From: an uncultured Prochlorococcus sp.
GTDB lineage: Bacteria; Cyanobacteriota; Cyanobacteriia; PCC-6307; Cyanobiaceae
Reading direction: 5' to 3'
Assembly: GCA_902560875.1 (NCBI GenBank)
Contig: CACENO010000001.1
Location: 112,514-176,513, forward strand
DNA length: 64,000 nucleotides
This document shows, piece by piece, positions 45,280 to 55,066 of this stretch. The translations under genes and the position numbers were made by a program. The notes under the pieces are model-generated. The model had not been told where the DNA came from and made no database searches. It saw only the letters and a list, made by a program, of their open reading frames with translations. Each line of letters opens with the position of its first letter. Positions within the stretch are counted from its first letter, which is position 1.

Positions 45280-45806
45280 ATTTAGCGTTCTTAAAAAGTT
45301 ATAAGAATCAAACGCTATAAGAATCTACCTTCTACGATATTAAATCTAAACTAATAAATTAGGAAATCAATAAAAAAATTACGATGCTTAAATAGTTGTG
45401 ATTTTGTAACCTTCATTTTAAAAAAAATCAAATCAATATGTAATATTGTCAACTTTGTCAATACTGAGTGAGCATAGCACCTGATAGAAGTAAGAACGCC
45501 TATAACAATTCCATGCCATTTATTACTTTCTAAGGAGCATTGATACTGCTATCCACAAGATTGAAAGAAAGACTAATAACAATCAACTGATCTAACAAAG
45601 AGAGATCACTAAAAGGCCAGACAGATTGGGAAGAAATTCCTAAACCTATTGAGATGGAGAAATCAGTACTTTAAAGCGACTCAAAGAATCGAACCTTTTA
45701 CCTGCTAGCTAGATATGGAGCTATATACTAAAGAATGGTTACTTAGGCACTATCAATAGTGCTTTCTACTGATGACGCGAATACAAATTTTGTCTAAAAT
45801 TTATAT

Positions 45807-45880
45807 GGCCGGGTGATGGGGCTCAGTCGGCCTGCAGAAAAGGAATAATCCTCAGTTCTGCACCTGAGAATTATTCCTTT
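45807..45880 (+). promoter_or_regulatory. Candidate structured RNA leader upstream of hli
   Basis: GGCCG(45807-45811)/CGGCC(45828-45832) hairpin; 45839-45855/45864-45880 17-bp stem with one mismatch; loop TTCTGCA (45856-45862) complementary to TGCAGAA (45833-45839). Confidence 0.5.
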
Positions 45881-51731: not shown

Positions 51732-51954
51732 TGTCTCCTAAATCAAAAAAGCAGATCAAAGAGTCTTAATTCTAAAGGTAGACATATCTACTAAGCATCG
51801 TAAATCTTGCAACGTGACCTAATGAGGAATAGAGAGAATTCTTGATCCCAAATTCTTCTCATGTATCAACCGATTGAAATAAAAGAGCAGAACAAATAAA
51901 CCTCACAAGTAAAAACCCCTGTGCGCTATAAAGGCTGTCTTCTTACATCACGCA

Positions 51955-52248
51955 ATGCAGTCTCAAGGTCGTTTATCAGAAGTTCGCCTAGTTGAACGCT
52001 TAAAGCAATTCCCTATTGAAAAATGGGAAAATCTTACAGATAGTCAAAGGAATTACGCCAAAAAAGCTTGGGGAGTTCTTACGTACAAGTGGAGATGGCA
52101 AATCGCACTGAATATTCCATACCTTGCAATTTTCCTTTTAGATAGGAGTATTCCAGCTGTTCATCAATTCAATATGAATCTATTGGCCTCTATTGCTGCC
52201 AAGCTCCCCATTCCTTCTTTCGTCTCTTCATGGATAGGAGTCGGCTAG
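51955..52248 (+). CDS. Hypothetical 97-aa membrane protein (repeat copy 1)
   Basis: MQSQGRLSEVRLVERLKQFPIEKWENLTDSQRNYAKKAWGVLTYKWRWQIALNIPYLAIFLLDR...; identical to copy 2. Confidence 0.7.
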   Translation: MQSQGRLSEVRLVERLKQFPIEKWENLTDSQRNYAKKAWGVLTYKWRWQIALNIPYLAIFLLDRSIPAVHQFNMNLLASIAAKLPIPSFVSSWIGVG

Positions 52249-52303
52249 GACAGCAAGAAATGTTCAAAGAAGGGGAAAAACGTGCTGCCCTTGCAAAACC
52301 AAA

Positions 52304-52459
52304 TCATTCCTCTTCTTCCTTCCGCCCTCTCATGCCTCTTTTGACGGAAAAACTGAGCGCACCAAAAAAGAATATCGCTAAGCATCCCCAAAAAAGCCTC
52401 TCAATAAAAAGCAAAACAGGGCTACCAACTTGAATCGCAGGATCAAATAAAAAATCCAT
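52304..52459 (-). CDS. Hypothetical 51-aa membrane protein (repeat copy 1; 72 aa if GTG 52522 is used)
   Basis: MDFLFDPAIQVGSPVLLFIERLFWGCLAIFFFGALSFSVKRGMRGRKEEEE; start uncertain. Confidence 0.5.
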   Translation of the reverse strand: MDFLFDPAIQVGSPVLLFIERLFWGCLAIFFFGALSFSVKRGMRGRKEEEE

Positions 52460-53047
52460 AAAGACTAAAGAAGAAAGCCTCCAGACAAAAGGGGCTTTTG
52501 CTCTTAATAGGACCGATTGCACCCCATCACCCGGCGCCCAAAAGGAGGTTAACCACTGTCAAGGGTTTTGTCATCAGCAGATACACGCTATTCATGGGGG
52601 CGGCCACACCTTAAGAAAGAAAAAACACTATTTGTAGGGGGTTGATTTTATTGGCGATTGATCTTAGAAAATAGGTTCCCCATCACCCAGGCCCGAAGCA
52701 TAACGCGAGGGTCTTTTTTATTGCCTCTCAGCTCGCTGAGCCTCCGAGAAATGTCAGGGTAACGAGCGACGCACAATAAGCTCTTAAATGCACTGCATTA
52801 TTTTGATAATGCTAAGTAAGAATTTACAGAGGGAAAGGCGAAAATCTACCAATCGAAAAATAACAGCAGTAACAAAGCAAAAGCTTATAAAGCACAACGC
52901 ATATATCTTAACTATTAAAAGCCAATAGACAGCAAGATCTAAAAGACAGGGAGAGTGGATACCTTTTAGCCTCCAATAGGAAATACTAAAAACACAGTCC
53001 CAGATAAAAGATATTAATAATTCGAGAAAGAAAAGTGATAATAGTTG

Positions 53048-53284
53048 TCATCCAAAATATTTAGAGGCACATTTATTAATTGAAATCATTTCATCATTTC
53101 CTTTGTCAAGAATTAGCTTAAGACTACAATCACAAAAATTTTCCAGGGATTTCTTTGGAGCACCTAAGATAATTGGACTCTGCCTTGCACTAAGAATGCA
53201 TTCGTCAAGCTGATTTTCAGGGTAAGCAAAAGCCCTTAAAGAGAATGTCAAGCAAATTAACAAAGTTAAGAATACATATCTCAT
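53048..53284 (-). CDS. Putative secreted Cys-containing protein between the repeat copies
   Basis: 78 aa; signal peptide 'MRYVFLTLLICLTFSLRAFA' then four Cys. Confidence 0.6.
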   Translation of the reverse strand: MRYVFLTLLICLTFSLRAFAYPENQLDECILSARQSPIILGAPKKSLENFCDCSLKLILDKGNDEMISINKCASKYFG

Positions 53285-53531
53285 AAACTTATTTTCAATT
53301 CATTAAACATAATGAGTCCAATAATCAAATCTTTTTAATGATACTAAGCAATAAATAAAAAATAGAACCTATAACGTACAATCAACACTTCTTATGACAA
53401 ATACCCAATAACTACTTCTTACCGGGAAAGAATTGAGCTTCAACGCACATGAGAGGAGATACGGATAACCGCCCAAAGGGTATAAGTAAAAACCCCTATG
53501 CGCTATAAAGGCTGTCTTCTTACATCACGCA

Positions 53532-53825
53532 ATGCAGTCTCAAGGTCGTTTATCAGAAGTTCGCCTAGTTGAACGCTTAAAGCAATTCCCTATTGAAAAA
53601 TGGGAAAATCTTACAGATAGTCAAAGGAATTACGCCAAAAAAGCTTGGGGAGTTCTTACGTACAAGTGGAGATGGCAAATCGCACTGAATATTCCATACC
53701 TTGCAATTTTCCTTTTAGATAGGAGTATTCCAGCTGTTCATCAATTCAATATGAATCTATTGGCCTCTATTGCTGCCAAGCTCCCCATTCCTTCTTTCGT
53801 CTCTTCATGGATAGGAGTCGGCTAG
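53532..53825 (+). CDS. Hypothetical 97-aa membrane protein (repeat copy 2)
   Basis: Identical to 51955-52248. Confidence 0.7.
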   Translation: MQSQGRLSEVRLVERLKQFPIEKWENLTDSQRNYAKKAWGVLTYKWRWQIALNIPYLAIFLLDRSIPAVHQFNMNLLASIAAKLPIPSFVSSWIGVG

Positions 53826-53880
53826 GACAGCAAGAAATGTTCAAAGAAGGGGAAAAACGTGCTGCCCTTGCAAAACCAAA

Positions 53881-54036
53881 TCATTCCTCTTCTTCCTTCC
53901 GCCCTCTCATGCCTCTTTTGACGGAAAAACTGAGCGCACCAAAAAAGAATATCGCTAAGCATCCCCAAAAAAGCCTCTCAATAAAAAGCAAAACAGGGCT
54001 ACCAACTTGAATCGCAGGATCAAATAAAAAATCCAT
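53881..54036 (-). CDS. Hypothetical 51-aa membrane protein (repeat copy 2)
   Basis: Identical to 52304-52459. Confidence 0.5.
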   Translation of the reverse strand: MDFLFDPAIQVGSPVLLFIERLFWGCLAIFFFGALSFSVKRGMRGRKEEEE

Positions 54037-55066
54037 AAAGACTAAAGAAGAAAGCCTCCAGACAAAAGGGGCTTTTGCTCTTAATAGGACCGATTGCACC
54101 CCATCACCCGGCGCCCAAAAGGAGGTTAACCACTGTCAAGGGTTTTGTCATCAGCAGATACACGCTATTCATGGGGGCGGCCACACCTTAAGAAAGAAAA
54201 AACACTATTTGTAGGGGGTTGATTTTATTGGCGATTGATCTTAGAAAATAGGTTCCCCATCACCCAGGCCCGAAGCATAACGCGAGGGTCTTTTTTATTG
54301 CCTCTCAGCTCGCTGAGCCTCCGCTCCTCAGTAGAACTTTTCAAAATCATGGAAGATGCTGACAAAATGCAAAATAAGCTTATTTGGACTATTTAAATTT
54401 CCTAGCGACAAAGCTTTCTAATTAAATTGTATAGATATGAAAATTAATTCAATAGTCTTTGCGTTAAATGCATAATCCTCATGAATAAAAGATAAGCCTT
54501 ATCCCCTCATTTTCAAAAGTAATGATTATATCTTTGAAATTATAGGTAAAGCAAGTATCGTAAATTGACAGGTGATGAAGTCTTCCCCAAAGCAAGCAAT
54601 AGAAGTATTTACCTCTGATCTTATTCTCCTTTCTGAAAAGATTTATACACCTTTCCTTGCAACTTACAATACTTTAAGTCATTATTTTTGTTTTTAAAAA
54701 TGTACAAATTCAAAATATGCCAAAGCTCCCTGGCAGGATCCGCTTAAAAATGTAAATAATGGGAAATCAAATAGCCAATAATGCTTCCTGTAATTCACTC
54801 TATTCAAGAGCTATCAATCTGTAACGAATGCCTAGCAAAATAAAACCTTCTAAAGGATTAAGGTGTTACAGCTTCTTTCGCTGAGCAAAAAGAAGCGAAA
54901 CGCTCAGCCTCCAAAAGAAAAATACTAAGGCGTGTAATGCGTCAAGAGGCAAAGACAAAAGTTTAATGGGTCAAAAGTATTAAAACTACTTGTCGCATTA
55001 GCGTTTTAAGTTAGTATGATCATACTAATCCTTAATATTTCTATATCAAAGAAATTCTAATTTGTA

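Follow-up and report, generated by a model that had tools for sequence, protein, structure and literature searches.

A probable recent ectopic duplication of an 840-bp block carrying two small genes and a predicted small-RNA gene in Prochlorococcus

Extra gene copies are seldom retained in very small, streamlined genomes. Tycheposons are tRNA-anchored elements with a tyrosine recombinase. The closest described small RNAs are (i) Yfr103, which is reported from many marine Synechococcus and, within Prochlorococcus, only from low-light strains, and which has paralogues of 290–328 nt (PMC5069720), and (ii) Yfr1–Yfr21 of MED4, which often lie in islands and shift locations (PMC1242208, PMC2518516). 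The locus described here carried a predicted small-RNA gene together with two small protein genes, present twice as one block.

The window, i.e., the whole 64-kb stretch of DNA analysed, comprised positions 112514–176513 of contig C1 in a low-light Prochlorococcus draft genome of 1.36 Mb (49 contigs, 74% complete). Its stretches 51907–52746 and 53484–54323 aligned in register over 840 columns at a constant offset of 1577, with one mismatch (99.88% identity; G at 51921 in copy 1 and A at 53498 in copy 2), and this confirmed the duplication reported in a preliminary description. The pair was the only repeat at E≤1e-3 within the 64-kb window, and its longest exact run was 825 bp versus 15–17 bp in shuffled windows. 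Identity ended at 51906/53483 on the left and at 52747/54324 on the right; the outer flanks of the two copies aligned on neither side and the spacer between them was unrelated, both as previously described. The features of the locus were as follows:

51907–52746, plus strand: copy 1 of the block, assigned as derived, between the gamma-glutamyltransferase (GGT) gene and the 78-aa gene
51910–51940, plus strand: conserved promoter-like stretch CCCCTATGCGCTATAAAGG upstream of ORF1, containing the mismatch site 51921
51955–52248, plus strand: ORF1 copy 1, 97 aa, conserved
52304–52459, minus strand: orf2 copy 1, 51 aa, small hydrophobic (membrane-type), GTG start possible at 52522
52471–52724, plus strand: small-RNA element copy 1, ~254 bp, with a hairpin at the 5' end, a pair of CCCCATCACCC motifs, a promoter-like region (TTTGTCA..TATTTA), a stem and a terminator
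52689–52719, plus strand: conserved intrinsic terminator of the RNA element, with hairpin and T-run
52727–52740, no strand: hairpin CTCAGC-TC-GCTGAG adjoining the right border of the block
52747–53483, no strand: spacer of 737 bp, unrelated to the block, assigned as the ancestral neighbour of copy 2
53048–53284, minus strand: 78-aa gene within the spacer, with its G001 homologue between GGT and ORF1
53484–54323, plus strand: copy 2 of the block, assigned as parental by synteny, with the ancestral base A at 53498
53532–53825, plus strand: ORF1 copy 2
53881–54036, minus strand: orf2 copy 2
54048–54301, plus strand: small-RNA element copy 2

The block had been described as a two-gene membrane-protein cassette with a non-coding tail of about 290 bp; the number of protein genes was upheld, but the strand of the second gene was wrong and an RNA gene had been missed. 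Instead of a plus-strand 67-aa ORF (52230–52433), the second gene was the minus-strand orf2 (52304–52459), which was conserved in G001 (33 of 49 amino acids kept) with differences biased to the third codon position (8/8/19 at the three positions). orf2 was also related to small proteins of several other Prochlorococcus genomes, and in three genomes belonging to one other genus (one of them putative NATL2A) orf2 and the RNA gene were likewise divergent. ORF1 and orf2 were without match in Pfam, NCBIfam and PHROG; the AlphaFold model of ORF1 had a mean pLDDT of 52.6 and was not used as evidence.

The supposed non-coding tail corresponded to the element at 52471–52724, which had many relatives and represented a predicted structured small-RNA gene family with a conserved stem, compensatory changes and a terminator. 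The covariance model, covering the 3' 154 nt, displayed the order stem, GGGG/CCCC region and terminator. The helix showed 37 compensatory cells versus 24.6 in shuffles (0 of 500), and its pairing reached 80.6% in place versus 31–56% when the helix was slid; these values are tilted towards the stem, which had been positioned manually on the very alignment used for the test. The folding-energy z score was −3.27 for a copy from a high-light genome and unremarkable (about 0) for the copy in the window. The tail was also considered as a conserved protein gene, but the minus-strand ORF had no family match and helix pairing accounted better for the conservation. Far from the duplication, the window contained a diverged piece of the 5' part of this element, with one CCCCATCACCC motif (45710–45866, minus strand).

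Profile searches recovered 34 copies or fragments of the RNA element among the first loci; a larger set that partly overlapped these gave 89 rows. With the covariance model, the RNA family was found in 57 of the 121 family genomes, at 1–9 copies each, and, for the high-light genus, in 77 of 81 genomes, among them each of the 24 high-quality ones; no match was obtained among the larger Synechococcus-type genomes listed, where distant members may be missed. The putative MED4 genome (G140:C1, 1,657,990 bp) harbored three copies, at 348838–348971 (plus strand), 772352–772494 (minus strand) and 936696–936840 (plus strand). In the putative MIT9313 genome, copies lay at 1082951–1083203 (plus strand) and 1102825–1103066 (minus strand). 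In the putative SS120 genome (G017), a copy (L114 4135–4261) had the 6S RNA gene on one side and a glutamine-II riboswitch on the other. In G004, ORF1 was preceded at 133 bp by a 3' fragment of the element (L033 7041–7102), which immediately followed tmRNA, and in G005 the element preceded ORF1 at the same distance. A derivation of the tail from tmRNA was rejected: a tail fragment stood behind tmRNA in G004 only, and other tmRNA loci were without it.

ORF1 was present once in every other sampled Prochlorococcus genome that had it, and two intact copies were found only in the genome studied here; the duplication was therefore a genome-specific event. Second ORF1 matches in G010 and G008 were broken or partial, and G094, a larger genome of non-Prochlorococcus size, had two distant ORF1 relatives. 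DNA synteny across the genus was patchy because gene order was strongly rearranged, and the two halves of the block lay apart in relatives. G001 kept the order GGT, 78-aa gene and ORF1, and the distance between orf2 and a desaturase gene was 1.6 kb in G006, about 8 kb in G001 and 2.2 kb for copy 2. At the position equivalent to 51921, copy 2 and almost every aligned relative had A, so that the G of copy 1 was derived. These comparisons showed copy 2 to be the ancestral locus and copy 1 to be an insertion into the interval from GGT to the 78-aa gene, because the 78-aa/ORF1 and orf2/desaturase linkages were kept in relatives and the base of copy 1 was the derived one. GGT of G001 was flipped relative to the window and had on its two sides inverted copies of the region with the 78-aa gene (L035 8693–8912 and 11193–11412). 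The proposal of a very recent duplication was supported by a single-copy ORF1 in relatives having it, a parent identifiable by synteny and one difference in 840 bp. Across the left junction of copy 1 (51904–51923), the A-to-G mismatch at 51921 strengthened a hairpin CACAAG..CCTGTG; this single case (n=1) could be a palindrome-templated change.

Neither copy 1 nor copy 2 displayed a target-site duplication, the overlap at both junctions was only 0–1 nt with no microhomology, and no terminal inverted repeats of the block were reported, its ends AAGTAAAAACC and GAGCCTCCG not matching each other. No transposase domain, in agreement with the preliminary description, and no integrase domain was found in the neighbouring genes tested; the two tyrosine-recombinase (PF00589) matches of the genome were located on contigs C2 and C21, away from the block. 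Near-identical non-tandem copies, an identifiable parental locus and unrelated flanks at the new site are the characters of a recent ectopic segmental duplication. The best explanation, at a probability of roughly 0.6, was a genuine recent non-tandem (ectopic) duplication copied from copy 2 by illegitimate joining or template switching, rather than by transposition, because the junctions lacked microhomology and target duplication.

Under this explanation, the 840-bp stretch of copy 2 (ORF1, orf2 and the small-RNA gene) would have been copied and joined between the gamma-glutamyltransferase and 78-aa genes to give copy 1, its ends presumably being joined illegitimately or by template switching. 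Copying perhaps began at the RNA repeat by invasion of a broken end and ended on the left by end-joining, since the right border fell 22 bp beyond that end of the RNA repeat which holds the terminator, while the left one was a short way before the promoter of ORF1. In G001, the interval from GGT to the 78-aa gene was free of the RNA element, and a start at a pre-existing RNA repeat there was therefore without direct support. Cross-species homology began within a few bases of the left border of the block, at the CCCCTATGCGCTATAAAGG stretch; this coincidence of the border with the edge of conservation counted against the explanation, being poorly explained by chance, though selection for a working promoter could account for it. 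A likely effect would be twice the dose of ORF1 and orf2 plus an additional copy of the RNA gene.

Comparable copies were found in G006, a genome of the same genus consisting of a single contig of 2.03 Mb, of which 1.6 Mb and one further stretch were searched. The non-tandem pairs found there included: (i) a 703-bp small-ORF pair of 99.86% identity (G006:C1 512887–513589 and 30421–31123), with unrelated flanks and no target-site duplication seen; (ii) a 378-bp pair of 100% identity (L043 7515–7892 and 18985–19362), inverted, 11 kb apart and with unrelated flanks, which contained the RNA element followed by Cyano-1 RNA; (iii) an 886-bp small-ORF pair of 99.1% identity (G006:C1 545675–546563 and 784347–785235), with no target-site duplication seen and its left end falling in hli-type homology; and (iv) pairs of about 409 bp at 98% and 301 bp at 97.7%. 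The 703-, 378- and 409-bp pairs resembled the block in being short and near-identical, in carrying small ORFs or small RNA genes and in having unrelated flanks without a target-site duplication, but they differed from it in sequence, and some were farther apart or inverted. A further stretch of 839 bp, 100% identical between two sigma-factor-like genes of G006 (G006:C1 1441683–1442521 and 704885–705723), suggested gene conversion. Near-identical pairs of the RNA element within one genome were found in G000, G004, G005, G006, G027 and G064, with 5' borders anywhere between 564 bp outside the element and 36 bp within it and 3' borders 11 to 134 bp outside it; the ends of the comparable copies shared no target motif or target-site duplication. 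Two of the about 12 non-tandem G006 pairs (≥150 bp, ≥92%) involved the RNA element. The loci around that element had been chosen for carrying it, and the degree to which near-identical pairs were enriched there is therefore a biased estimate.

An assembly or whole-genome-amplification artefact, with one real copy and a second falsely joined, was considered unlikely. The draft state of the genome (49 contigs, 74% complete), its probable single-cell origin and the ability of an assembler to open a repeat loop in error were compatible with it, but two separate false junctions would be required, and the junctions shared 0–1 nt versus the 5–8 nt usual for amplification chimeras (PMC4595205). This short overlap, together with the one base by which the copies differed, derived in copy 1, therefore spoke against an artefact, while the similar non-tandem pairs in single-contig G006 made it less likely and the event an ordinary one. 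An older duplication held identical by gene conversion was quite unlikely: multi-copy RNA genes do form near-identical pairs within genomes, and those of other genomes may be explained by gene conversion, but ORF1 was single-copy in relatives, the borders were sharp with no decaying homology outside, and nothing required an older event. The ongoing gene conversion proposed in the preliminary description was unnecessary, given that the outer borders were sharp and the block itself must hence have been copied. Recombination with incoming DNA of a close relative that had the block at the site of copy 1, leaving both versions, would fit a locus rearranged between species, but it needed a donor with 839/840 identity and another location, none of which was seen among the genomes of other species, and it was judged highly unlikely.

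The preliminary description had also proposed a non-autonomous mobile cassette, which in a MITE-like, integron-like or rolling-circle-like form might have the RNA element as its active end. In line with this, the RNA element was dispersed (1–9 copies per genome, with near-identical pairs in six genomes), its ends AATAAAAAAGCC and GGCCTTTTTTATTG resembled inverted repeats, and a hairpin lay beside the right border. Against it, the inverted ends were accounted for by terminators, and the borders of pairs varied widely on both sides without a target motif or target-site duplication. A copy-number check of the 840 bp in relatives and phages gave no further copies: the full block was present just twice, both in one genome, no relative had it as a unit, and a phage or viral origin was likewise rejected in that no phage or viral contig matched. 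A common insertion target motif was sought among the comparable copies and rejected. Lacking target-site duplication, terminal inverted repeat, target motif, microhomology, a transposase in the neighbouring genes tested and a block unit in relatives, the mobile cassette was therefore unsupported and quite improbable, and ectopic copying was favoured over transposition because the borders of comparable pairs varied and had no common motif. It was also considered whether the tail represents an undescribed Prochlorococcus-wide multi-copy small-RNA family whose members act as recombination hubs, such that copying begun in one of them takes adjacent small genes to new sites and builds genomic islands without a transposase; this was thought improbable.

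A recent ectopic duplication at this locus would provide a fresh copy with a known parent, showing a way in which islands of low-light Prochlorococcus can acquire small genes that does not involve transposons. As a side result, a conserved multi-copy RNA gene family was delineated in abundant phototrophs, and it can be checked against existing transcriptomes.

In comparison with known mobile elements, the block had no target-site duplication, no terminal inverted repeats, no several copies with the same ends and no transposase in the neighbouring genes tested, as would mark an insertion sequence or MITE; no attC-like ends of an integron gene cassette were seen by eye, and the two PF00589 matches of the genome lay elsewhere; and, with respect to tycheposons, the nearest tRNA found was 18 kb away and no recombinase was found in the neighbouring genes tested. 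Among small RNAs, Yfr103 is reported as multi-copy from several low-light strains of Prochlorococcus that also have the tail family, and an identity of the two was tempting by copy number and palindrome position; it was rejected because the distributions differed, the tail having no match among the Synechococcus-type genomes listed, where distant members may be missed, and being present in high-light strains such as putative MED4, which set it apart from Yfr103 as described (PMC5069720). Identity with Yfr6 was rejected as well: the published SS120 Yfr6 interval overlapped the glutamine-II riboswitch, while the tail lay between the riboswitch and 6S RNA. Yfr1–Yfr21 of MED4 resembled the tail family as small RNAs often placed in islands at shifting locations, but their published coordinates (PMC1242208, PMC2518516) coincided with none of the three copies in putative MED4. 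Cyano-1 RNA (RF01701), which immediately follows the tail element in G006, is a separate family. Rfam 15 gave no match over any tail element, and the RNA family, which the MED4 small-RNA lists (PMC1242208, PMC2518516) do not contain either, may be new or may already carry a Yfr name. As a duplication, the 840-bp event belonged to an already known kind, and the RNA family within it appeared to be unnamed.
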